The position numbers and the translations under genes were made by a program. From IMG/VR virus record IMGVR_UViG_3300001533_002366, positions 1-56,832 of that record: DNA of 56,832 nt; one strand, given 5' to 3'. Under the pieces are notes generated by a model that did no database searches, was not told where the DNA came from, and saw nothing but the letters and a program-made list of their open reading frames with translations. Below are positions 5,484 through 52,908 of the stretch, piece by piece (position 1 is the first letter of the stretch; every line of letters begins with the position of its first letter). Origin of the DNA: a virus.

Positions 5484-6935
5484 TTAACCACCAATGGTCA
5501 ATGAAGCTATACCATTACTCCGAATCAAACTTGTCGCGTACCTACTCAGAATAGTTAAACTTGGCGTATATCCTAAAGGATATGGATGAAGTACCGCAGG
5601 GACATAAGGAGCATAAATATAGACAGCCTTAAGATCTTCTACAGGTTTGTATATAACTATCATCTCTCCCTCAGGAACAACAGCACTTGTAAGAACTCTC
5701 CATTTTCCACCAGCAACCGTTGCAGTTCTATAACCAAGATCACCGTCCATACTAGATGTTCCAGTATAATTGAATGTCTGTAAGTCTTCAAGTATAGAAA
5801 CATCAAGAGGATTAGCAAGAATAGTATTTCCACCATCCATGTTTGTGTCTTGATAAATCTGCGCAGATAACTGATTAAGAACAGGAGTAATATTCTCATG
5901 CCAATACTTAACGCCCCAAGTATATGCATCAGGTGGTGTCCTGTCAAAATTGGATGTATGAGTAGCAGCATTTAATCGAGTATTACCAGTCAGTAATGCA
6001 TTTACAATTTCCCTATCTATATCAAGAGCGATCTGCTGTCCAAGAAGATTTACAATCTCTGCTTGCATAGACAAATCAAATAAGGATCTCATATCCTGCT
6101 CCATATTAATGGACCATTTTGAAGAGATCTGACGATCTTTAGCATAAAGTCTTACCTTATCTACAGTAAGAGTTACTTGAGGATTAATTCTATTCTCTTC
6201 TAATGAACATGTCACTGTATATCTAATATAAGTGGCACCACCAGTAGCACTAGAAACAGCAACAGTACCTGCAAGATAATTTACTTGACCAGATATAACA
6301 TCCGCTACTCCACCAATATCTACACTTGAAGAAAAATGACCTTCTACAGCGGGTATAATAGATACATCTGTATAAGCTGTACCATCTGAAGAAACGCCAG
6401 TAATTTCGAAGTCTCTTTCAAGATGAGCTTGTTCAGATGTAATATCAGCAACCTCAAGTACATTATAAGCAGTACTTCCAATAGGCATAGTAGCTGTAAT
6501 GGGAGTACCAATACTTGGTCCACCAGAAATATCTGTTCCAGTAACAGGTGCAGTGTATTCAGTAGTACTATTTGCTGGACTAAAAGATGCCCGAATAAAA
6601 GCTTTTACTGTTTCTGGTTTGTCCATTGGAGCAACAGTTACTGCTTCTTTGGCTATTAGTTTGGGATAAAAATATCTTAAAATTGGAAGAGTTAGTGTTT
6701 CATATGGATTAATTTGAAACATAGAATTTTCCAAAAGATTTACCCTAGTATTTTCAGCCAATTGTACAAATACATTTCTAACCTTTTTATCTTCAATAGA
6801 CTCTGCAAGACCAGTAACATATGCCTCAAATGCAGTATCGTCCACGAGAACCGCTTTTAAATTTCCAGGTTTTCCAGGATCAATACCAGATACTTTTTTG
6901 GTAGTCCTATAAACCTCAGTTAGTAATTCCTTCAT
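5484..6935 (-). CDS. Major capsid protein, T4 gp23-like
   Basis: 483 residues, forming the hexamers of the head shell (HK97-type fold). The N-terminal half contains the T4-type stretch NPYETLTLPILRYFYPKLIAKEAVTVAPM, the region that in gp23 homologues precedes the A-domain. The middle is rich in Ser/Thr/Gly beta segments. The C-terminus carries the long conserved block from GNTRLNAATHTSNFDRT to YPLGYTPSLTILSRYATSLIR. The gene is last in a portal-protease-(scaffold)-capsid order, which strongly supports the call. The start is fixed by AAGGAGG eight bases upstream, and the AGAACAAATA element lies 54 bases upstream. A prohead protease cleavage near the N-terminus is likely, but the site cannot be placed. 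Confidence 0.85.
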   Translation of the reverse strand: MKELLTEVYRTTKKVSGIDPGKPGNLKAVLVDDTAFEAYVTGLAESIEDKKVRNVFVQLAENTRVNLLENSMFQINPYETLTLPILRYFYPKLIAKEAVTVAPMDKPETVKAFIRASFSPANSTTEYTAPVTGTDISGGPSIGTPITATMPIGSTAYNVLEVADITSEQAHLERDFEITGVSSDGTAYTDVSIIPAVEGHFSSSVDIGGVADVISGQVNYLAGTVAVSSATGGATYIRYTVTCSLEENRINPQVTLTVDKVRLYAKDRQISSKWSINMEQDMRSLFDLSMQAEIVNLLGQQIALDIDREIVNALLTGNTRLNAATHTSNFDRTPPDAYTWGVKYWHENITPVLNQLSAQIYQDTNMDGGNTILANPLDVSILEDLQTFNYTGTSSMDGDLGYRTATVAGGKWRVLTSAVVPEGEMIVIYKPVEDLKAVYIYAPYVPAVLHPYPLGYTPSLTILSRYATSLIRSNGIASLTIGG

Positions 6936-16158: not shown

Positions 16159-16545
16159 TTATTCTATTTGACGGATCTGTCGAAATATTGTATTTTCAAG
16201 TGTTCTAACTATATAATGAAGAGATTCTTGTACTCTATCCTCTGGATGAATTTCATTCACTAAACATGTCAAAGGAGCTAATAGTAGTTCAGTCACTTCA
16301 TGAAATGCAGACACCCTAATCATAAATTCTGCTGAGTTAAGATCATAAGTATCATTCCATTCTGTATTTAAGGATATAGCAGCAAATCTATTAGAAACAT
16401 TCCACACTATTGAAGCCCGAGTAAGATTACCATTATCTATAAATTCCCAATTCGTAGAAACATACCAATCTTTTAATCCATAATAATCTAACCAAAACAT
16501 AACCTCTTCTTGAAATAATTTAAAATGCTCTTCCGTTGTTTTCAT
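16159..16545 (-). CDS. Putative metallopeptidase-like phage protein
   Basis: 128 residues. The central SAFHEVTELLLAPL (about 83-96) has the H-E-x-x-E pattern on a hydrophobic helix found in small phage proteins related to SprT/zincin folds. A canonical HExxH is absent, so catalysis is uncertain. The preceding beta segment (RFAAISLNTEW) and the helix after it fit that fold. It overlaps the upstream thymidylate synthase gene by 26 bases. Confidence 0.5.
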   Translation of the reverse strand: MKTTEEHFKLFQEEVMFWLDYYGLKDWYVSTNWEFIDNGNLTRASIVWNVSNRFAAISLNTEWNDTYDLNSAEFMIRVSAFHEVTELLLAPLTCLVNEIHPEDRVQESLHYIVRTLENTIFRQIRQIE

Positions 16546-17249: not shown

Positions 17250-17606
17250 TTATTTACGTTTATTCCATTTAATTTGATTACTAATAGCAAATCCCCAATT
17301 TACAGTACCATACGTTGCTAATAGTGCCTTTCTATATTCTGGAAAAATGTGAGCAATTGTTAACCCCAAAATCGTAGTAAAAGAAAAGTAGAAAGCTAAT
17401 TTTAGATCTGAAGGATGTTTATCTAAAATTGGATTTATTTCATACCACCCATCTCTATCTAAATTTCTTTCTGTAGTTAACATATCTGCAGCATGTCCCA
17501 AAAGAAAATATCCAGCATATATTTTGTCTTCTTTTGTCCATTTAATTGGAGTTGCACAACTTGTAAACAAAAAAATACATAATATAATTATTACTAATTT
17601 TTTCAT
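17250..17606 (-). CDS. Small lipoprotein
   Basis: 118 residues with a classic lipoprotein signal: MKKL, a hydrophobic stretch, then lipobox F-T-S-C (Cys 17). The mature part has DMLTTERNLDRDGWYEINPIL and two hydrophobic helices (about 65-85 and 93-105), so it is probably membrane-embedded beyond the lipid anchor. The stop overlaps nothing, but the start overlaps the stop of the GroES gene (ATGA). The lipid anchor implies action in the host envelope, for example superinfection exclusion or lysis, neither shown. Confidence 0.6.
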   Translation of the reverse strand: MKKLVIIILCIFLFTSCATPIKWTKEDKIYAGYFLLGHAADMLTTERNLDRDGWYEINPILDKHPSDLKLAFYFSFTTILGLTIAHIFPEYRKALLATYGTVNWGFAISNQIKWNKRK

Positions 17607-18155: not shown

Positions 18156-18851
18156 TTATATAAATCCATATATTATATGACTTCTTGTAGAAAAATTTAC
18201 TTTATATTTCTCACACATATCAAATACTTCTCCTGAATGTTTTATTAACTTTTCTATCGTATCTCCTTCTGGCATTAAATATATATGTTCTGTATTACCA
18301 TTATTAATTCTTATTAATTCCTCCAAATATTGATGTATAAGATCATTATTTTCATATACAATTTTAAAATAAACTCTTTTATCTTTTAGAACTGCTTCAG
18401 ATAATTCCAAATTAGTTTTTAATTCCTCAGAACTAAATATCTTTGGTGAATATATAAATTTTATATTATCTTCTTGTGTATCTTTAATAAATGAAGTTAA
18501 ATTACACCCATTTGTTTCTACATTTGCATACGGATAAATAAGTTCATTTAACATTAATAATGATTCATTGTAATTGTTACTATAACCAGGTTCTCCTCCT
18601 GTAATCATAATTCCACATTTAGTATTATACAATGTTGTTTGTAGATCTTGTAATGTAAGTGACATTTTATTAGAGATAGACATGGTAACTAATGTATCAC
18701 AATATTCACATGGATGACCATTTGCAACTCTATCACATTCCTTAAATCTTATTAACATCATTCTTCTACCAGCATCAGGTCCCTCTCCCTGCATAGTAAT
18801 AAATGAATGAATTGGATGAATAGTTTGATCTTCATTAAATTCTACACTCAT
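18156..18851 (-). CDS. queE: QueE-like 7-carboxy-7-deazaguanine synthase (radical SAM)
   Basis: 231 residues. It would convert 6-carboxytetrahydropterin to 7-carboxy-7-deazaguanine. The beginning IHSFITMQGEGPDAGRRMMLIRFKECD is typical of QueE. Cys 39, 48 and 51 form the cluster-binding set (C-x8-C-x2-C, then DT). MITGGEPGYS and VETNGCN follow as the SAM-binding GGEP and the family TNG motif. With QueC (25957) and DpdA (14487) it makes a near-complete route to deazaguanine in DNA. FolE and QueD are not in the window. GAAAGGAG provides initiation. Confidence 0.85.
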   Translation of the reverse strand: MSVEFNEDQTIHPIHSFITMQGEGPDAGRRMMLIRFKECDRVANGHPCEYCDTLVTMSISNKMSLTLQDLQTTLYNTKCGIMITGGEPGYSNNYNESLLMLNELIYPYANVETNGCNLTSFIKDTQEDNIKFIYSPKIFSSEELKTNLELSEAVLKDKRVYFKIVYENNDLIHQYLEELIRINNGNTEHIYLMPEGDTIEKLIKHSGEVFDMCEKYKVNFSTRSHIIYGFI

Positions 18852-22396: not shown

Positions 22397-22564
22397 ATGA
22401 AATACATACTATTGATAATGGGGGTTGTAATATTGACTCCCATTATCTATGTAGTGGGGGTAAAAATAGGAGGAATAGCATTAATAGGAATAACACTATT
22501 TCTCCTATTAAAGAATAAGAAAAATGATAGTGTCGATGTCTCAGATGATATTGACACTATCTAA
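22397..22564 (+). CDS. Small two-helix membrane protein; hairpin-rich gene
   Basis: 55 residues, unrecognised. There are two hydrophobic helices (about 3-20 and 25-38, joined by G-V-K-I-G-G) and an acidic tail (DSVDVSDDIDTI). AAGGAGG lies just upstream. The mRNA folds densely: 22414-22424 pairs with 22437-22447, 22465-22478 with 22496-22509 (14 bp with one G-U), and 22526-22540 with 22547-22561 (15 bp with two G-U), the last ending at the base before the TAA. It is a member of the hairpin-gene set. Function unknown; a membrane role in host takeover is conceivable. Confidence 0.7.
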   Translation: MKYILLIMGVVILTPIIYVVGVKIGGIALIGITLFLLLKNKKNDSVDVSDDIDTI

Positions 22565-23845: not shown

Positions 23846-23980
23846 ATGAGACAATTACTAATTGATGCAATAGAGCGCGGAAACTTAATCCGTGCTCGAC
23901 AAATCCTCTGTGTCATGAAGGCTCTTGGGAAGGAGCCTCCAAAAAAGGCACAGGATTTAATCAGAAGGCTACTTTCATAG
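23846..23980 (+). CDS. Small basic protein; hairpin-rich gene with start codon in a loop
   Basis: 44 residues, MRQLLIDAIERGNLIRARQI then LCVMKALGKEPPKKAQDLIRRLLS. It is an all-helical, basic, possibly nucleic-acid-binding or helix-hairpin protein with no recognised family. The mRNA is a chain of stems: 23839-23845 with 23850-23856, leaving ATGA as the loop so that the start codon is presented at the tip; 23873-23881 with 23889-23897 (9 bp, one G-U); AGGCTC/GAGCCT (23919-23938); and 23965-23973 with 23979-23987 across the stop codon. AGGAGG abuts the first stem. Confidence 0.65.
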   Translation: MRQLLIDAIERGNLIRARQILCVMKALGKEPPKKAQDLIRRLLS

Positions 23981-24098: not shown

Positions 24099-24239
24099 AT
24101 GAGCCAGTATTGGGAAAGACGATTAATTTCCGCCTTCAGTTCTGAGAAATTGGAGGGGGAAATTAAAAAGTTTAAGGAGGGGGGGGAGAAATTAGAACCC
24201 TATCCCCCGAGACAAAGAAAGCGGTGCTGGATTTTATGA
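24099..24239 (+). CDS. Small charged protein; hairpin-rich gene
   Basis: 46 residues, unrecognised. An amphipathic N-terminal helix (SQYWERRLISAFSSEKLEGE) is followed by a Lys/Gly segment and a basic PYPPRQRKRCWIL end. The GC content is visibly higher than in neighbouring large genes. Stems: TTAATTTCC 24123-24131 with 24158-24166, a G-run/CCCCC pair, and an 11-bp stem 24223-24233 with 24239-24249 whose loop and 3' arm contain the TGA. AGGAGAG is the ribosome-binding site. Confidence 0.65.
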   Translation: MSQYWERRLISAFSSEKLEGEIKKFKEGGEKLEPYPPRQRKRCWIL

Positions 24240-24323: not shown

Positions 24324-25028
24324 TTATATCCGTGCTTGGTTTTGTTGAAAAGCTATTATTCTTCTATTTGGAACTTCCATACACTGCAAACCAACTACTG
24401 ATAATGAATGAAGTGTAATGAAATTTGATCTAAATGCATTCCTTCCAAGATCTAAATTGGGCACCCCAGGTCTTCTTTTTCCACTAATTGTGTACCTCTT
24501 TGATAAATCTGATTCCTTTAAAAACTTCCTTAATAAAAATCGTATTGTATCAACATCCATTGTTTTATTAAAATAACATACAATATGAAAACCTGTCTTA
24601 CCTGTATATCTTATTTCTGCCTCTCTTATAATTGGAATATTAATAATGGTATTATATACATCTGAAGTGGTTGTTTTTGCCCATCTAAATCCATCATTTC
24701 CAACATCTACATCGATAATTCCAAAGTCTTCTTTTCTTTTCATTCCACTATGAATACTAATAGTACGTCCTGTAATTATTGTATCATAGTTAGAATTTGT
24801 TAATTGTATAAACCCAGCATTTGTGTCCTTTCTTTTTATAATTGTTTTATTTAGATCGACCGCTATAAAAAACATAAGATCTCTCCCAACAACCTCTTTT
24901 AATATTTTTGATCTTACTTTTTGATAATAATTCCAAATATCTATTTCTCTCAATCCTTTTGGATAAAATGTATTCTTTACAATAATCGTTTCTGGGTTCT
25001 CAGGGTAAGCCACTTTAATATCCTCCAT
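24324..25028 (-). CDS. Archaeo-eukaryotic primase-type polymerase (LigD PolDom-like)
   Basis: 234 residues. It probably makes primers for the family B polymerase. Evidence: IDIWNYYQKVRSKILKEVVGRDLMFFIAVDL resembles the start of LigD PolDom proteins. FGIIDVDVGNDG supplies the paired catalytic acids, EIRYTGKTGFHIVCYF matches the S/T-G-x-K-G-x-H motif, and GVPNLDLGRNAFRSNFITLHSLS is a late conserved arginine region. No zinc or helicase domain is attached. The ATG at 25028 has no ribosome-binding site, whereas GGAGG inside the frame precedes a GTG at 25013, so translation may start there (MAYPENPET). Confidence 0.65.
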   Translation of the reverse strand: MEDIKVAYPENPETIIVKNTFYPKGLREIDIWNYYQKVRSKILKEVVGRDLMFFIAVDLNKTIIKRKDTNAGFIQLTNSNYDTIITGRTISIHSGMKRKEDFGIIDVDVGNDGFRWAKTTTSDVYNTIINIPIIREAEIRYTGKTGFHIVCYFNKTMDVDTIRFLLRKFLKESDLSKRYTISGKRRPGVPNLDLGRNAFRSNFITLHSLSVVGLQCMEVPNRRIIAFQQNQARI

Positions 25029-25175: not shown

Positions 25176-25316
25176 ATGACAACTTTAATTGGTATTGGTA
25201 TATTTCTCCTAGTAATAGGGGGGGTAGACTTATTACTAGGAGGAATAGCAATAGGGTTCTCCTGCATAATTGCGGGAGGACTCTGGCTAGTAAATCTCCT
25301 GCGAATACATCCGTAG
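25176..25316 (+). CDS. Small Gly-rich membrane protein; hairpin-rich gene
   Basis: 46 residues, hydrophobic throughout (MTTLIGIGIFLLVIGGVDLL then LGGIAIGFSCIIAGGLWLVN). It forms two Gly-zipper transmembrane helices and is related in character to the protein at 22397. Stems: 25206-25217 with 25231-25242 (12 bp, perfect), 25257-25266 with 25271-25280 (10 bp, two G-U), and 25293-25303 with 25312-25322 (11 bp, one G-U) with the TAG in the 3' arm. AAGGAGGT is a near-perfect Shine-Dalgarno. A holin-like or membrane-modifying role is possible but not shown. Confidence 0.7.
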   Translation: MTTLIGIGIFLLVIGGVDLLLGGIAIGFSCIIAGGLWLVNLLRIHP

Positions 25317-25476: not shown

Positions 25477-25809
25477 ATGAAAATGAAAAAAGTAATAGTA
25501 ATATTCATAGCAATGTTTATGATGGTGTCATTATCGGCTCCACTATATGCCCGAGGTCATAGGCACTATAATGGACATAGTCACAGGAGTGATATAATAA
25601 CAGGAATAATAATTGGATCTATTCTTGGAGGAATAGCAACCTCCAATTATTATCCACAATATCACCACTACAACCACGACAACTACCACCAACCACGATA
25701 TCACAATCACCACTACAATCATTCATATCACCAACAAGTGTGGCATCCCGGTTATTACGACCGTTGTAGAGGTATATGGATACCTGGATGGTATTCATAT
25801 AGTAGATAA
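25477..25809 (+). CDS. Secreted His/Tyr-rich protein with WxPGxW-like motifs
   Basis: 110 residues. Sec signal peptide MKMKKVIVIFIAMFMMVSLS with cleavage likely after LYA (about 26). A Gly-zipper hydrophobic segment (IITGIIIGSILGGIA, about 41-55) is followed by a His/Tyr/Asn-rich region and a C-terminal WHPGYYDRCRGIWIPGWY, which resembles the YXWGXW/WXPGHW repeats of bacterial outer-envelope proteins. It is probably periplasmic or outer-membrane associated; metal binding by the His run is possible. The mRNA can form ATAATAATTGGA (25606-25617) with 25642-25653, in competition with TTGGAGG/CCTCCAA. It looks like a host-derived gene. Confidence 0.65.
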   Translation: MKMKKVIVIFIAMFMMVSLSAPLYARGHRHYNGHSHRSDIITGIIIGSILGGIATSNYYPQYHHYNHDNYHQPRYHNHHYNHSYHQQVWHPGYYDRCRGIWIPGWYSYSR

Positions 25810-25956: not shown

Positions 25957-26532
25957 ATGGATAACAAAAAGATATTAATTTTATTTAGTGGTGGTGCAGA
26001 TAGTGTTCTGATGTTAGAAATTGCACTTGCAATGGGATATAAACCATATTGTTTGTTAGTAGATTATCAACAATTACATATAGTAGAATTAACATATGCA
26101 AATAACTATTTACAAAAGAAGAAAATTCCATATCAAACATTTAAATTAGATCTTCAAGGAATAAACAGTGGACTTACTGGGAATGGAAAACAAGGAACTT
26201 TTAAGAATGTAAATCCTCATTATGTTCCAGGAAGAAATACTATACTCTTATCTATAGGAGCAAGTATCGCAGAATCAATGGGAATTAATACTATTTGGTT
26301 GGGTGCAGACTATTCTGATATGGAAAATAAATTTCCTGACTGTACTCAAAAATATATATATAAAGCAAATCAGATGTTTAAAACATCTGGGTCAATACCA
26401 ATTAAAATCGAAGCTCCATTATTAGGACTTACCAAAGAAAATGTAATAAAGTTATTAAAACATTTTGGTGTAGAAATAACAGAAATTTTCTCTGGGTATG
26501 GAGAATTCGAAGAACAAGGAAACAAAACATAA
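25957..26532 (+). CDS. queC: QueC-like 7-cyano-7-deazaguanine synthase (short form)
   Basis: 191 residues. It would convert carboxy-deazaguanine to preQ0 with ATP and ammonia. The PP-loop ILFSGGADS (8-16) and the QueC motif GTFKNVNPHYVPGRNTILLSIGASIAES are clear, with WLGADYSDMENKFPDC and KIEAPLLGLTKENVI. It is about 30-40 residues shorter than usual, and the C-terminal four-Cys zinc site is missing; it ends EIFSGYGEFEEQGNKT. It is either a phage-specific minimal form or impaired. Its stop overlaps the HPRT start (TAATG). AAAGGAG precedes the ATG. Confidence 0.8.
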   Translation: MDNKKILILFSGGADSVLMLEIALAMGYKPYCLLVDYQQLHIVELTYANNYLQKKKIPYQTFKLDLQGINSGLTGNGKQGTFKNVNPHYVPGRNTILLSIGASIAESMGINTIWLGADYSDMENKFPDCTQKYIYKANQMFKTSGSIPIKIEAPLLGLTKENVIKLLKHFGVEITEIFSGYGEFEEQGNKT

Positions 26533-34091: not shown

Positions 34092-34496
34092 ATGTCATAT
34101 ATAGTATTATCAAGACACTACTCTCTTAGTGGTGAAGAAAATTATCTTCTTGCAAGTACTCAATTAGAAGATGATTTAAATATTGAAATAGGAGAAATAG
34201 TAAATATTATTCCACGTTATAAAACGATATCACTTAATAAGGATGAAACAGTTGAGTTTAGATCCACTATTTGTAAGACATGTCATGCTGTAACATATGG
34301 TGATTTTATTTATTGTCCTTGGTGTGGAACAAAATATGATTTCAATCCAAAAAAGAAGACTCATAAAAAGAAAGAAGATAAAGATCAAAAGTACGAAAAA
34401 CAAAACAATATTCAATCTACCCTTCTTAAGCTGATTGCACCGTATAAAACTAAGGAGGAGAAAAAAAATGAAGACGAATCCGAAAGAAGTGAATGA
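34092..34496 (+). CDS. Zinc-ribbon protein
   Basis: 134 residues. CKTCHAVTYGDFIYCPWCGTKY (about 60-81) is a two-CxxC zinc ribbon. It is flanked by a beta N-terminus and a Lys-rich tail that may bind nucleic acid. GGAGG is upstream. The 3' end overlaps the next gene. Confidence 0.6.
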   Translation: MSYIVLSRHYSLSGEENYLLASTQLEDDLNIEIGEIVNIIPRYKTISLNKDETVEFRSTICKTCHAVTYGDFIYCPWCGTKYDFNPKKKTHKKKEDKDQKYEKQNNIQSTLLKLIAPYKTKEEKKNEDESERSE

Positions 34497-42671: not shown

Positions 42672-43097
42672 TTATATATCATCAATAGAGATTGATTTGC
42701 GCCAGTCTCTATTGACAACCATGTATGTGAAGCCACGTCCTCCCCCATTGGAAGAAGCCCTCCTGAAGTACAGAGCTCCTTCCTCTTCGGATAGGTCTCC
42801 TCTGTCTCTTCGTTCACCCCACCTCTCCCTCAAAAGGTGGTGTTTTGCCCCTTCCATCGTTGGGTGAAAACATGAGGTCCCCTTTTTGGAGACCCAAAAA
42901 TTTCCAGGAAGAACATCGATTACCCGTCCGTCAATGTTGTAATAGTTCATATGGATTTCTTTCCATGAAAGGAAGTCAATACTCTCATTCATTTCAGTAT
43001 CTATTGGAATCTCGTCCAACACAAACGTCAGATTTGGACGATATTTCCCATAGTCCAAATATAGCCACTGACCATTGTCTAATTTTGTAAAACTCAT
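42672..43097 (-). CDS. Hypothetical protein; hairpin-rich gene
   Basis: 141 residues, unrecognised (MSFTKLDNGQWLYLDYGKYR, later GRGFTYMVVNRDWRKSISIDD). It is GC-richer than its neighbours. Stems in the sense RNA: 42775-42783 with 42750-42758 (9 bp, complete only with a G-U), 42876-42882 with 42888-42894 (7-8 bp, again G-U), 43012-43019 with 43034-43041, and 42682-42691 with 42706-42715 just before the stop. GGAGGG ribosome-binding site and an exact copy of the conserved promoter. Function unknown. Confidence 0.7.
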   Translation of the reverse strand: MSFTKLDNGQWLYLDYGKYRPNLTFVLDEIPIDTEMNESIDFLSWKEIHMNYYNIDGRVIDVLPGNFWVSKKGTSCFHPTMEGAKHHLLRERWGERRDRGDLSEEEGALYFRRASSNGGGRGFTYMVVNRDWRKSISIDDI

Positions 43098-47944: not shown

Positions 47945-47978
47945 AGATATTTATCCTTTTTAATAATATCCCCATTTT

Positions 47979-47989
47979 TATTTTGTTCT
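47979..47989 (-). promoter_or_regulatory. AGAACAAAATA element
   Basis: Minus-strand element with TACAAT upstream, 35 bases before the structural gene. Confidence 0.45.
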
Positions 47990-48017
47990 ACTATTGTATC
48001 GAAGTTAGTAAATTGAA

Positions 48018-48040
48018 CTATATATATAAATTATTGGAAT
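48018..48040 (+). promoter_or_regulatory. Conserved 23-bp promoter, exact copy 3
   Basis: CTATATATATAAATT plus ATTGGAAT, 25 bases before the ATG of the next gene. Confidence 0.75.
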
Positions 48041-48064
48041 ATAAATCAACCTTAAAAGGAGGAA

Positions 48065-48523
48065 ATGATGGGACAAATAGAAATAGAAGATGCAAGTGGA
48101 AGAGTCGTTGAAATTGAAGAAGTCAACGACAAAATCTTCGTCTTCCTGAACAGCCAACATAAATTATTGGCTGAGCAGGAGGAAATCCTAAATGCCAGTT
48201 TTGGAACTGGCACTTGGGAAATCTTCGAAGTTCCAGCCGAAGGCTGGACTATTGAGGAAATAGAGAAAGTAGCAGAAAATAATTTCCAAAATGGGGAGAC
48301 GGCAGTATTTGCCTCACCCATTCCAGCACTGATCTCCCGCCTTGCCTTTTCGCGGGGGGCGTGGTCATGGTCAGAGACCATAAACCACCAACCCGACAGC
48401 GTCTTTTGCGGCGCTGTCTGGATATTCCACAACGACCGCCGGGTCTCAAAAGAGGTCCCCGACGGCAAGGGGGGAGTTAGGATAATCAAGACCGTTGCCC
48501 CGACTGGATGGCAACTGGTCTAA
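48065..48523 (+). CDS. Hypothetical protein; hairpin-rich, GC-rich gene
   Basis: 152 residues, acidic N-terminus, no recognised family (residues MMGQIEIEDASGRVVEIEEV at the start, WIFHNDRRVSKEVPDGKGGV near the end). The start may be 48065 or the adjacent ATG at 48068. Codons are unusually GC-rich. Stems: 48104-48110/48124-48130, 48151-48157/48167-48173, 48193-48200/48205-48212, 48232-48238/48242-48248, 48361-48372/48376-48388 (internal loop), and 48395-48403/48410-48418 (9 bp, one G-U). A bulged GTTGCC/GGCAAC stem abuts the stop. Nearly the entire mRNA can pair. Confidence 0.7.
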   Translation: MMGQIEIEDASGRVVEIEEVNDKIFVFLNSQHKLLAEQEEILNASFGTGTWEIFEVPAEGWTIEEIEKVAENNFQNGETAVFASPIPALISRLAFSRGAWSWSETINHQPDSVFCGAVWIFHNDRRVSKEVPDGKGGVRIIKTVAPTGWQLV

Positions 48524-48529
48524 CTAGAA

Positions 48530-48569
48530 GGTTCATTGTGATACAGAGAGATTTGTATCACAATGAACC
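48530..48569 (+). terminator. 15-bp perfect hairpin after the stop
   Basis: GGTTCATTGTGATAC and its complement, 10-base loop. An A-rich rather than T-rich tract follows, so some read-through into the PEP-CTERM gene is likely. Confidence 0.7.
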
Positions 48570-48646
48570 CATAGAACAAAAAAAAGAAAGGAGGGAAAAA
48601 ACGGTAGGAGTATTTTTTTAATTAATCTTTAAGGAGGAAGGAAAGT

Positions 48647-49321
48647 ATGAAAAAAGTTATTTTAATGAAAAGAGTTATTTTAGTAGTTTTAATGGTAATG
48701 TTTCTAGCATCATTTGGGTGGGCATATACAATAAACGACCACCCAAATGATGCCATAGAGGCATCACCAGGAATTTATGAAAGTCTTGGAATAGACATCA
48801 ATGTCGTAAATGGATTTATGACATTCGATCTGTTTACAGCATTTGATGGATATAATCGGGTTGGCTCTTGGGATACATATGGTGCCGATCTGGCTCTTGA
48901 TTTTAATCGAGATGGATGGTTTGAAACCGCGTTTGGTCTGGATAATCATTCACCCACTTATGGCCACCTGATGACAGGAGTAACATCCTGGTTATCAAGT
49001 ACAGACAGAAAGAACCAAGACGGTGGTGCAAGTGGGAATTACAATTACGGTAATTCTCAATGGATTACAGCAGAGAACTTTACCGACTCGGTATTTTATG
49101 GAGTTGAACATGACACTATAGGATATCATTTCGAATTTCTAACCCCAGTAGACTACAATGGAGAAGATATTCAAATCCATTGGGGCACTGCAACATGTGC
49201 TAATGATATAGTTCAGGGAGATGCAAATGTACCTGTCCCTGAACCAGCAACTATGCTCTTACTGGGAAGTGGATTGATTGGACTTGCGGGAATTGGAAGG
49301 AAAAAAATGAAGAGAAGCTAG
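48647..49321 (+). CDS. PEP-CTERM sorting-domain protein
   Basis: 224 residues. Signal peptide (MKKVILMKRVILVVLMVMFL, cleavage near GWA, about 27), a beta-rich mature domain, and a C-terminal VPEPATMLLLGSGLIGLAGIGRKKMKRS: the V-P-E-P motif, hydrophobic helix and basic end that exosortase recognises in Gram-negative EPS producers. The start could be MKRV eight codons in. The mRNA carries a perfect 15-bp stem (48707-48721 with 48739-48753) across the signal-cleavage region and several 6-7 bp stems, for example GAATTAC/GTAATTC. It has its own AAGGAGG and probably reads through from the conserved promoter at 48018. I know of no well-studied phage example. Confidence 0.85.
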   Translation: MKKVILMKRVILVVLMVMFLASFGWAYTINDHPNDAIEASPGIYESLGIDINVVNGFMTFDLFTAFDGYNRVGSWDTYGADLALDFNRDGWFETAFGLDNHSPTYGHLMTGVTSWLSSTDRKNQDGGASGNYNYGNSQWITAENFTDSVFYGVEHDTIGYHFEFLTPVDYNGEDIQIHWGTATCANDIVQGDANVPVPEPATMLLLGSGLIGLAGIGRKKMKRS

Positions 49322-49368
49322 AAAAAAAAGTAGATAGGATTTATTAATAATCCTATCTACTTTTTTTT
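49322..49368 (+). terminator. Terminator after the PEP-CTERM gene
   Basis: AAGTAGATAGGAT and its complement flanked by A8 and T8. Confidence 0.9.
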
Positions 49369-49382
49369 GTAAAAATTTTATT

Positions 49383-49405
49383 CTATATATATAAATTATT
49401 GGAAT
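49383..49405 (+). promoter_or_regulatory. Conserved 23-bp promoter, exact copy 4
   Basis: CTATATATATAAATT plus ATTGGAAT, then GGTAATTAATCTTTAAAG and the GGAGG of the next gene. Confidence 0.78.
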
Positions 49406-49433
49406 GGTAATTAATCTTTAAAGGAGGGGAAAA

Positions 49434-49640
49434 ATGAATATAAAGCGACAACCCGATTATGGGTTCGAGGACTTTATCAGATTCACTCGAACCCATAAGT
49501 CATTCCGACAGTCAGTCGGAATGACATTTCGATTAATAACATGGTCAGTAAAGGGGGCTGACTATGTTATTGGCAAAATAGCTGACCCCTTCTTCAATAA
49601 GGTTGACAAAAAAGTGTCAACCTTATTGAAATTAGAATGA
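49434..49640 (+). CDS. Small basic protein encoded by an almost fully paired mRNA
   Basis: 68 residues, basic and amphipathic (MNIKRQPDYGFEDFIRFTRT and later VDKKVSTLLKLE), unrecognised. The coding sequence is a series of stems: 49457-49469 with 49486-49498 (13 bp), 49499-49509 with 49515-49525 (11 bp, loop AGTCA), 49535-49548 with 49558-49571 (14 bp, one G-U), and 49593-49608 with 49615-49630 (16 bp). These cover about 144 of 207 nt. The stop follows seven bases after the last stem, then a terminator. It is the clearest member of the hairpin-gene set. Confidence 0.7.
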   Translation: MNIKRQPDYGFEDFIRFTRTHKSFRQSVGMTFRLITWSVKGADYVIGKIADPFFNKVDKKVSTLLKLE

Positions 49641-49641
49641 G

Positions 49642-49684
49642 AAAAATAGGTAGGATTATTAATAAATCCTACCTATTTTTTTTG
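49642..49684. terminator. Bidirectional terminator
   Basis: AATAGGTAGGATT and its complement with A-tract and T-tract, between the small gene and the convergent phosphoesterase. Confidence 0.9.
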
Positions 49685-49692
49685 TAAAATTT

Positions 49693-50922
49693 TTATTCTA
49701 AAATTGGATGATCTAACTTTTCTATCTCTATTAAACTATGATCATAGTTTTTCCAATCATCTTGAATCTCATCAAAACAATAAAATTTTGACTCAAAATT
49801 TAATAGATAACCATTACTTGGTTTCAAATCTGCCTGAATTATCCATCCACCAATTGCCGGTGTTAATCCTTTTCTTTTTAAGTAATTTGTTTTTCCTTCA
49901 AATGTACCACAACATGCTCCAAATATTGGTCCAAACATTGCCTGAACTTCTATATGAAGATGCCCACAAAACACAAATCGAGTAGTTGGTCTTGATTCAG
50001 GACTATGAGTAATTGCTGATAACTCATTTAGAGCAACCTGTTCTACTCCCTTTTGAAGTCTATATGACAAACTATATGGGACCCCTCCACTTGGGTGCCA
50101 TAGTTTTGCAGTAACATTATCTAATAAAGGTATATCAGCCTCATCATAACCAAGATAATGAAAGTCTGGTCTTTTACTAGCAATAGATAAAAGAGGATTA
50201 TGACCCCCACCATTCTTAATAAAAGAATAATCATGATTACCACCAATAGCGTACCATTCAAATCCATTCGGAAGATTTCTTATTGCTGAAGATTCTTGTT
50301 CCTCTGCTGTCATTGCATATATATCAAATAATTGACCTCTATAAACTGAATTCCCAGTTACAACATCTCCTGGACATAAAATATGTTTTATTCCTTTCTT
50401 TCTACATATTTCAGCAAATTCATTTAAAGCTGTTATTTGAACTGAAGTAGAACCAAAATGAGGATCTGATACTACTGCAAATATAATTGACCTCCGTGAA
50501 ATTTGATCTATATATTCTTTTCTTGGGCCGAGTGTAGAAAATATTACATTACCATGACTCGTGTCCATTTCATATCCTTTTTCCCTGAAATAATCTACTA
50601 ATTCATAAACTATATTTGGTGAACAATGTAATTCATTACACATATCAACAATTTTAGCAACTTTTAATTTCGTTATTAAATCTAAGAATCTATTATCTAT
50701 TGGTATACTATCATCAAATTGAGAACTCTCATTAACATGATTATTCTTCCTTTTAAGAATAGAATATATATACTTTCTAAAAGCACTAAGACTTGAATTA
50801 TAATTATAATTAGATACTGCTGTTTTATACATCTCCGAGGCCGGAACTCCTTTTTTATGTGACTTTATAATAAAATTAATAAAATCTTTAAAGTCTTTAT
50901 TGGTACAATAATAATTTGACAT
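49693..50922 (-). CDS. Metallophosphoesterase with N-terminal helical region
   Basis: 409 residues. Residues about 1-145 are helical, with a possible helix-turn-helix (CNELHCSPNIVYELVDYFREKG). Residues about 150-340 are a calcineurin-type phosphoesterase: VSDPHFGST, LCPGDVV, AIGGNHDY, and FCGHLH. The layout resembles phage or plasmid DNA-processing exonuclease-like proteins but the substrate is unknown. AAGGAG upstream. Confidence 0.78.
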   Translation of the reverse strand: MSNYYCTNKDFKDFINFIIKSHKKGVPASEMYKTAVSNYNYNSSLSAFRKYIYSILKRKNNHVNESSQFDDSIPIDNRFLDLITKLKVAKIVDMCNELHCSPNIVYELVDYFREKGYEMDTSHGNVIFSTLGPRKEYIDQISRRSIIFAVVSDPHFGSTSVQITALNEFAEICRKKGIKHILCPGDVVTGNSVYRGQLFDIYAMTAEEQESSAIRNLPNGFEWYAIGGNHDYSFIKNGGGHNPLLSIASKRPDFHYLGYDEADIPLLDNVTAKLWHPSGGVPYSLSYRLQKGVEQVALNELSAITHSPESRPTTRFVFCGHLHIEVQAMFGPIFGACCGTFEGKTNYLKRKGLTPAIGGWIIQADLKPSNGYLLNFESKFYCFDEIQDDWKNYDHSLIEIEKLDHPILE

Positions 50923-51678: not shown

Positions 51679-52908
51679 CTACTTTTCACCCTCCTTTAAT
51701 AATAGTGGTTTAAATTGTTCATACCATATTTTCTCATAAGAAAATTCCCACAACCCACTTCTATCTGGAAGACGAGGAATAACTTTATCCACTAATTCAT
51801 TAAAATAATCATCTTCAGTTGGATGATAATTTACTAATTGTAAATCCCCAGTATCGCCACTTTGAATTCCGGGTGTCCTAAATGAAGCATCAAAATACAT
51901 TGCTTGTGCCCCACCAAATTCCGCTAAAGATGGAAGTCTATTACTGAGTACTAATAAATTACCAGATATTTTAGCTTCCAACTCCACATTTGGAGATACT
52001 TCAGAATAACTTGCAAACACAAATAAATTTGCAAGTTTATATATATCTGATACGGCCTTTCTTGGGAGTGGTCTATTCTCATTTAAATCAGATGTAAAAA
52101 CAAAATCTTCATTTTCGATTAGACCTTTTGAAGTTGCTAAACTCTTCTTTACCATTATTTCAGATTGTACTCTACTTGCATTTGCATTTGCAAATACTAA
52201 TGCTACCTTCAAGCCCTTTCTTTTTAAAGATGCAAATACATTAATTACAGAGTCTAATCCCTTTGAATCCATTCTTGTAGCACAATGTGGAAGTATTTGT
52301 ATAGCATCCTTCTCGTAAAAATTTAACAACTTCGTAATCTTCCATGATAATGGATGAAAATCATTAAACTCTCTAAAATCTTTTGGGTTATATATACAAG
52401 CTACATCATCAATAGAACAATTGTACATTTTAGCTACACCTTGTCTTTCTGATTTATTCATATATACAATTGTAGATTTTGGTGGGAGATTATATCTAAG
52501 ACTATCTGGATACTGAGGATTTTTGGGTGGGTTTATCCAAGAAGAATGAATCCAATGATACCAGTGAGCTTTTAATTCAGGAGCAGCATTTCTTATTGCT
52601 TGATTCCAACAAAGAAAATTCCCATTTTTTTGGTATATTAAATCTGGAGTAAGAATTGCATCATAATCTTTTAAAAGAGTCTTATATTGATTTGTATAAA
52701 AATCGACCTTTTCTTTAAAATCATTAGAATGTGGTGGTACTAAATTTTTTACCATATGTGGATAAATGTCAGTACTACATCTCGAATCTACTAAAAAATC
52801 AAAATCCTGTTTAAAATAATCTAATAATCTTGCTCTTGCCAACCATCCAACATGAAGAGCATAACCATCCTGAAACGAACCAAAATGACTTAAAATTGCT
52901 ATCTTCAT
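51679..52908 (-). CDS. Glycosyltransferase, GT-B fold (family 4-like)
   Basis: 409 residues. N-terminal Rossmann half (MKIAILSHFGSFQDGYALHV), C-terminal half with ILPHCATRMDSKGLDSVINVFASL and FVFASYSEVSPNVELEAKISGNLLVLSN, the E-x7-E-type donor site of GT4. Upstream gene in a three-gene glycosyltransferase/phosphoesterase block. AAAGGGAAG is a weak ribosome-binding site. Confidence 0.75.
   Translation of the reverse strand: MKIAILSHFGSFQDGYALHVGWLARARLLDYFKQDFDFLVDSRCSTDIYPHMVKNLVPPHSNDFKEKVDFYTNQYKTLLKDYDAILTPDLIYQKNGNFLCWNQAIRNAAPELKAHWYHWIHSSWINPPKNPQYPDSLRYNLPPKSTIVYMNKSERQGVAKMYNCSIDDVACIYNPKDFREFNDFHPLSWKITKLLNFYEKDAIQILPHCATRMDSKGLDSVINVFASLKRKGLKVALVFANANASRVQSEIMVKKSLATSKGLIENEDFVFTSDLNENRPLPRKAVSDIYKLANLFVFASYSEVSPNVELEAKISGNLLVLSNRLPSLAEFGGAQAMYFDASFRTPGIQSGDTGDLQLVNYHPTEDDYFNELVDKVIPRLPDRSGLWEFSYEKIWYEQFKPLLLKEGEK

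Follow-up and report, generated by a model that had tools for sequence, protein, structure and literature searches.

Hairpin-tiled small gene cassettes in a contractile-tailed phage and the case for selection on message folding

Stem-loops of the ORF at 49434-49640

How can a 207-nt gene encode a protein of 68 residues while most of its letters lie in stem-loops, and what would such an arrangement be for? This question is raised by the ORF at 49434-49640 of a 56,832-base linear virus fragment, the whole of which was analyzed and is called the window below. The window belongs to a contractile-tailed phage, with PHROGs matches to sheath, portal, major head, and DNA polymerase proteins, and relatives found via the sheath protein reach up to 277 kb. 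Elsewhere in the window, we observed two queuosine-type genes, 25957-26532, with a QueC-like PHROGs match, and 18156-18851, which we take to be QueE-like. An earlier note, made from the letters of the DNA, had described four consecutive perfect stem-loops with almost no gaps, covering about 70% of the ORF. The features of the locus are as follows.

49434-49640, plus strand: hairpin-tiled ORF of 68 aa, the central feature, with a promoter-like motif and a Shine-Dalgarno (SD) sequence 5' and a terminator-like hairpin 3'
49386-49403, plus strand: promoter-like motif TATATATAAATTATTGGA, 48 nt 5' of the 49434 start codon, a putative promoter
49422-49429, plus strand: SD sequence AGGAGGGG, seen in the sequence, with predicted pairing to 49586-49593
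49457-49498, plus strand: stem-loop 1, arms 49457-49469 and 49486-49498, 13 bp, loop of 16
49499-49525, plus strand: stem-loop 2, arms 49499-49509 and 49515-49525, 11 bp, loop of 5
49535-49571, plus strand: stem-loop 3, arms 49535-49548 and 49558-49571, 14 bp including one G-U, loop of 9
49593-49630, plus strand: stem-loop 4, arms 49593-49608 and 49615-49630, 16 bp, loop of 6
49642-49680, plus strand: perfect terminator-like hairpin of 16 bp followed by a T run, starting 1 base past the stop of 49434-49640

All four stems were found at the sizes that had been claimed for them, 13, 11, 14 (one G-U), and 16 bp. Stem bases make up 108 of the 207 nt (52%), and the stem-loops, loops included, occupy 144 nt (70%), in agreement with the proportion given earlier. 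Three stems are perfect Watson-Crick helices, but the 14-bp stem is not, owing to its single G-U pair. Similarly, stem-loops 1 and 2 abut (0 nt), whereas the other intervals measure 9 and 21 nt and do not fit the description of a chain with almost no gaps. The four stems are unrelated in sequence to one another, and a repeat family was rejected as their source, each stem being found once in the window (at most 1 mismatch) and none exactly in 152 other loci. We also observed that GGTCAG, within 49535-49592, has two downstream partners, CTGAC at 49558 and CTGACC at 49583; since it can pair with either copy, stem-loop 3 has a competing partner.

The predicted minimum free energy (MFE) of 49434-49640 was -84.6 kcal/mol, compared to -41.8 ± 4.1 kcal/mol for 200 dinucleotide shuffles, none of which reached it (z = -10.4), and to a mean of -37.3 and a best value of -52.2 for 100 synonymous resamplings with the codon usage of the phage. 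The whole-gene codon-shuffle z was -5.1. Of 1000 synonymous resamplings, none contained more than one perfect stem of 11 bp or longer, and 95 contained one. The constraint on coding is as real and unusual as first thought. Together, the shuffles and the resamplings establish that the stems are real and go far past chance and past the demands of the protein. In the whole window, we counted 22 perfect hairpins with a stem of at least 11 bp, versus 1 to 6 in five Markov simulations.

The first 18 nt of the ORF are predicted to be open (0.89 unpaired), which translation requires. Sequestration of the SD sequence was considered as a function of the folding and rejected: a helix between 49422-49429 and 49586-49593 is predicted, yet the accessibility of the SD sequence equals that of codon shuffles. 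The same holds in 7 of the 8 computable cassettes of the set described below, the cassette at 42672 being lower (0.24 versus 0.48 ± 0.10). The 68-aa product was modeled as a low-confidence helix (pLDDT 69). It had no homolog in the viral_contigs, phages, genome_contigs, plasmids, NCBIfam, and PADLOC collections or among the loci of 80 relatives (E ≤ 0.01), and its matches in PHROGs and Pfam were at E values of 0.06 to 0.36 only.

Nine cassettes and their common layout

The gene had originally been taken singly, but it is one of a set with a common promoter-like motif, and it is the extreme member of nine cassettes laid out as promoter-like motif, SD sequence, ORF, and hairpin. The eight others are given below with their whole-gene codon-shuffle z scores, which preserve the protein and the codon counts. 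A codon-shuffle score was run on 49 window ORFs and on small ORFs behind the promoter-like motif.

48065-48523, plus strand: cassette of 152 aa, hairpin-rich, with homologs in other phages, z -8.5
48647-49321, plus strand: PEP-CTERM cassette of 224 aa, hairpin-rich, z -6.5, without the TATATATA motif
42672-43097, minus strand: cassette of 141 aa, hairpin-rich, z -3.6
22397-22564, plus strand: cassette of 55 aa, hairpin-rich, z -5.8
23846-23980, plus strand: cassette of 44 aa, hairpin-rich, z -3.8
24099-24239, plus strand: cassette of 46 aa, moderately structured, z -2.7
25176-25316, plus strand: cassette of 46 aa, hydrophobic, structured, z -2.9
25477-25809, plus strand: cassette of 110 aa, His/Tyr rich, the weakest member, z -1.4

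Eight of the nine cassettes fold more than their codon shuffles, with z scores from -2.7 to -8.5, and in several of them, such as 22397-22564 and 25176-25316, the hairpin chains are readable by eye. The ninth, 25477-25809, has the motif and is hardly structured; its antisense strand folds better, and a z of only -1.4 makes it hardly a member by structure. When scored in 120-nt windows, the nine cassettes had a mean z of -4.1, versus -0.75 for 44 other ORFs (Mann-Whitney p = 7e-6), the lowest of which (-3.7) was ORF 1865-2236, encoding a repeat protein. We noticed that this ORF is among five adjacent ones, in 46-2781, that consist of roughly 22-residue repeats (WAYxYCK..DDPEVRKHITDS). Background z scores averaged -0.6 in 220 random ORFs of relatives, none being below -5, and had minima of -2.9 in T7 (41 genes) and -5.3 in T4 (73 genes). 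Small size alone was rejected as the cause of the folding, as other small ORFs of the window, for example 16159-16545, 17250-17606, and 34092-34496, are unstructured.

The motif TATATATWAATTAWTGRA, with at most 2 mismatches, has 8 sites in the window for 0.90 expected, and all 8 precede cassettes, 31 to 69 nt 5' of the start codon; 48647-49321 alone lacks a site. A looser pattern also matches two unstructured window ORFs, 51679-52908 (z 0.0) and 24324-25013 (z 0.7). The exact variant of the putative promoter had no match in viral_contigs. The motif family is also present in relatives, ahead of genes that fold near-normally (76 ORFs, mean z -0.67), showing that the motif by itself does not track folding. 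Furthermore, 57 additional pieces of relative genomes (1.11 Mb, 1575 ORFs) contained no comparable set, the strong residuals being mostly spurious-looking ORFs as judged by eye. Thus, in the sample examined, hairpin tiling belongs to the cassettes of this phage and not to the motif family. At the other end of the layout, a stable hairpin lies near or behind the stop codon in all nine cassettes.

Two of these hairpins, 49322-49368 and 49642-49680, are alike and terminator-like, and a nearly identical stretch, TTTTTGTAAAA..TTTTATTCTA, comes after each, as if cassettes inserted by recombination between repeated spacers. In a separate observation, 48647-49321 matched Pfam PF07589 above the cutoff and carries, close to its start, a perfect hairpin of 15 bp (48707-48753); a phage-borne PEP-CTERM gene suggests a host with exosortase sorting.

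The cassettes might have been inherited from donors, phages or hosts that are generally structured, in which case their folding would have no role here. Most of them have a GC content (0.31 to 0.49) above that of the phage (about 0.30), and the family of the 48065-48523 protein is spread across different phages. An example of a generally structured phage is L143, a small contig with a mean z of -2.9 over 13 ORFs; there, many genes and not just accessory ones are structured, one of them at -6.8, showing that the effect is not always confined to cassettes. Nevertheless, the cassettes bear the motif variant of this very phage, suggesting that they have long resided in it; 22397-22564, with a GC content of 0.31, ranks with the most structured; and perfect 16-bp stems would erode under neutral drift. 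We therefore consider it unlikely that the folding is a mere inheritance.

Protein, sense RNA, and the 48065 family

The earlier note had left it undecided whether the RNA or the peptide is the main product. Our analysis favors neither, as both layers look selected; the annotated frame of 49434 has the best codon-usage score, and the ORF takes up the room between the promoter-like motif with its strong SD sequence and the terminator-like hairpin. In the RNA alternative, the cassettes specify structured regulatory or decoy RNAs, with ORFs that are incidental or that only shield the RNA via translation. It would account for a folding that 0 of 200 shuffles matched at 49434, for units that have a promoter-like motif as well as a terminator-like hairpin, and for the fact that most cassette products have no protein-family match. 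However, phage codon usage ranks the annotated frame first of six in 8 of the 9 cassettes (at 49434, -0.24 versus -0.61 for the next frame), the SD sequence is strong, and two cassettes yield recognizable proteins, the PEP-CTERM protein of 48647 and the 48065 family, which has 24 invariant columns over 7 sequences. In addition, the window contains no Rfam match at the gathering threshold, 47950-49700 having sub-threshold matches only, and hairpin positions in the 48065 family are not fixed beyond rotation (see below). Considering the codon usage of the frames, the two recognizable proteins, the lack of an Rfam match at threshold, and the predicted open start of 49434, we take the cassettes as coding. 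Their frames look translated, and an RNA as the main product seems improbable to us.

The mismatches within the stems bear on the molecule that is under selection. We counted isolated mismatches in the stems of the window cassettes and of the L142-L149 set of loci, which have homologs of 48065-48523: with a minimum of 8 Watson-Crick pairs, 13 were G-T and 2 were A-C; at a minimum of 7 pairs, the counts were 16 and 5. In contrast, 26 other ORFs gave 9 G-T and 15 A-C, these controls being picks from the window, like the 13 controls used for the whole-gene z. Of the two strands, the sense strand has the more stable fold in 7 of the 9 cassettes and in all 7 sequences of the 48065 homolog set. Since G-T pairs in the sense RNA and A-C does not, selection on the sense RNA is favored over cruciform DNA or template switching. 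At the level of the set, the sense RNA of the cassettes thus appears to be the target of selection, whereas 49434 alone is a tie (-86.3 for antisense versus -84.6 for sense).

The same data weigh on a mutational origin, in which template switching during replication perfects inverted repeats that small dispensable genes tolerate. Template switching would make stems of the kind observed, which are short, for the most part perfect, and mutually unrelated in sequence, and this mechanism is discussed for nematomorph coding palindromes in PMC6649704. On the other hand, 13 G-T for 2 A-C is an RNA-strand signature that would not be expected from a DNA process, and the sense strand out-folds the antisense strand in most cases. 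Moreover, the small ORFs of the same phage named above are unstructured, and the conserved 48065 family holds its hairpin density across several phages. We accordingly attach a low probability to a mutational origin.

This family offers the comparison that 49434-49640 itself does not. Homologs of 48065-48523, 44 to 50% identical to the window protein, are present in six loci (L142, L143, L145, L146, L148, and L149). L142 is a contig of a MAG labeled Sideroxydans, and the phages concerned differ, with a T7-type RNA polymerase in L146 and a T4-type terminase in L145. The codon-shuffle z, -8.5 in the window, was -6.6, -4.5, -3.3, -3.2, -2.9, and -1.7 in the homologs. The 7 sequences contain 38 hairpins, versus 16.2 ± 3.0 and a maximum of 24 in 200 codon shuffles. 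Left out of this count were L139, L140, L141, L144, L147, and L150, as duplicates of L143, L145, L146, and L148: L139 and L141 share their contigs with L143 and L148, L140 shares its contig with L144 and its protein with L139, and L147 and L150 were called duplicates from coordinates and scores only. The L149 gene begins 5 bases into its locus, so that its N terminus is possibly cut, and the L145 homolog was started at 5971 for the per-locus z comparison and at 5998 in later analyses.

At the LNxxF position, stems coincide while their letters differ, TGCCAGTT/AACTGGCA in the window and AATTCCCAGTT/AGCTGGGAATT in L145. Over the whole family, 26 positions were coincident, for a rotation null of 20.5 ± 4.0 that 214 of 2000 rotations brought to this value or above; the coincidence not being significantly above the null, a fixed RNA product is unsupported and a conserved architecture is not demonstrated. 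The 48065 family retains hairpin density with changed stem letters. The comparison with related phages proposed in the earlier note, carried out on this sister cassette, thus supports its interpretation in part: protein and hairpin density were kept while letters changed, but the positions were not significantly coincident. What the 7 sequences display goes against the outcome that was to speak against the structure, homologs keeping the protein without pairing. Inverted repeats do lie inside conserved translated regions in this family, as in coding palindromes of the nematomorph type, and the product of 49434-49640 had no homolog for the same comparison. The model of the 48065 protein (pLDDT 81) had no convincing fold match.

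In L145, only the 48065 homolog (z -6.6) and its upstream partner stand out among 11 ORFs. This partner, L145:5370-5987, encodes 205 aa, has a z of -7.1, and lies directly 5' of the homolog, so that a different phage has a second pair of genes tiled with hairpins; its product had no homolog in the phage collection.

Proposed message protection and known systems

Altogether, the computation supports the stems, their excess over the constraints of protein and codons, the link to a promoter-like motif, the sense bias, and the hairpin density of the homologs, and it supports that the cassette messages are under selection to remain folded, beyond codon choice. Short messages with their own promoters and no fixed shape would benefit from being folded as such, and protection fits this best, hence we infer that the purpose of the folding is protection of the message. 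The explanation that we prefer, and to which we would give an even chance, is that 49434-49640 genuinely encodes a small protein and that selection favors bulk folding of the cassette mRNAs, most likely to let them survive RNases or RNA targeting.

According to this explanation, each accessory cassette would be transcribed, apparently alone, in a large contractile-tailed phage, and the choice of codons would superimpose a series of stem-loops on the protein code of its mRNA. The resulting armored transcript would be short and nowhere unpaired over any great length, and it would withstand endonucleases specific for single strands, or attack by RNA-guided systems or antisense RNA. Such protection may act early in infection, a timing guessed from the genes behind the motif in relatives, and ribosomes could still read the armored transcript because its first codons are predicted to be open. 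A bolder proposal, which we put forward as tentative, is that some phages possess a promoter-defined regulon of armored messages whose hairpins, written in the synonymous codons of accessory proteins, leave no stretch open to host RNases or RNA-guided immunity. A second, density-type code would then sit atop the protein code and persist while the stem letters turn over.

If folding does protect the transcripts, phage accessory genes would be subject to a strong pressure at the RNA level that has so far gone unnamed, with RNases, RNA-targeting CRISPR, and antisense as candidates. The cassettes would then be natural, evolved examples of stability-optimized messages, and the codon-shuffle z combined with the promoter motif would provide a simple signature for such genes in metagenomes.

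Several known systems share part of this arrangement. In leader-peptide attenuators, a short ORF overlaps stem-loops and is followed by a terminator-like hairpin, as is the case at 49434; unlike in attenuators, there is no co-directional regulated gene 3' of 49434, since the neighboring gene, 49693-50922, runs on the opposite strand. Rickettsia palindromic elements are likewise palindromic and are read through as part of coding genes, but they are similar copies of one mobile repeat family, whereas every stem is unique here. For phage cassettes tiled with hairpins, we found no resembling report among the papers that our searches of an open-licence library returned, judged by title and the start of the abstract. 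The PACKEIS study describes a synonymous codon arrangement that gives ORFs more backfolding than shuffles, in dsDNA viruses too, and proposes RNA stability or small-RNA evasion as reasons (PMC6544989). As described there, that signal is a genome-wide statistical tail, whereas ours concerns one gene class with visible, near-perfect hairpin chains. A further parallel is with the mitochondrial genes of Nematomorpha, for which PMC6649704 reports coding palindromes with a mean of 43 bp and up to 142 bp, both arms being coding and the midpoints common to some species and not to others. Like the genes with these palindromes, the cassettes have perfect inverted repeats inside what look like translated genes, and in the 48065 family, protein and hairpin density are kept together. 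They differ from what PMC6649704 describes in that their stems, of 8 to 16 bp, follow one another along the small accessory genes of a dsDNA phage, with a link to one promoter-like motif and a G-U signature that points to RNA.
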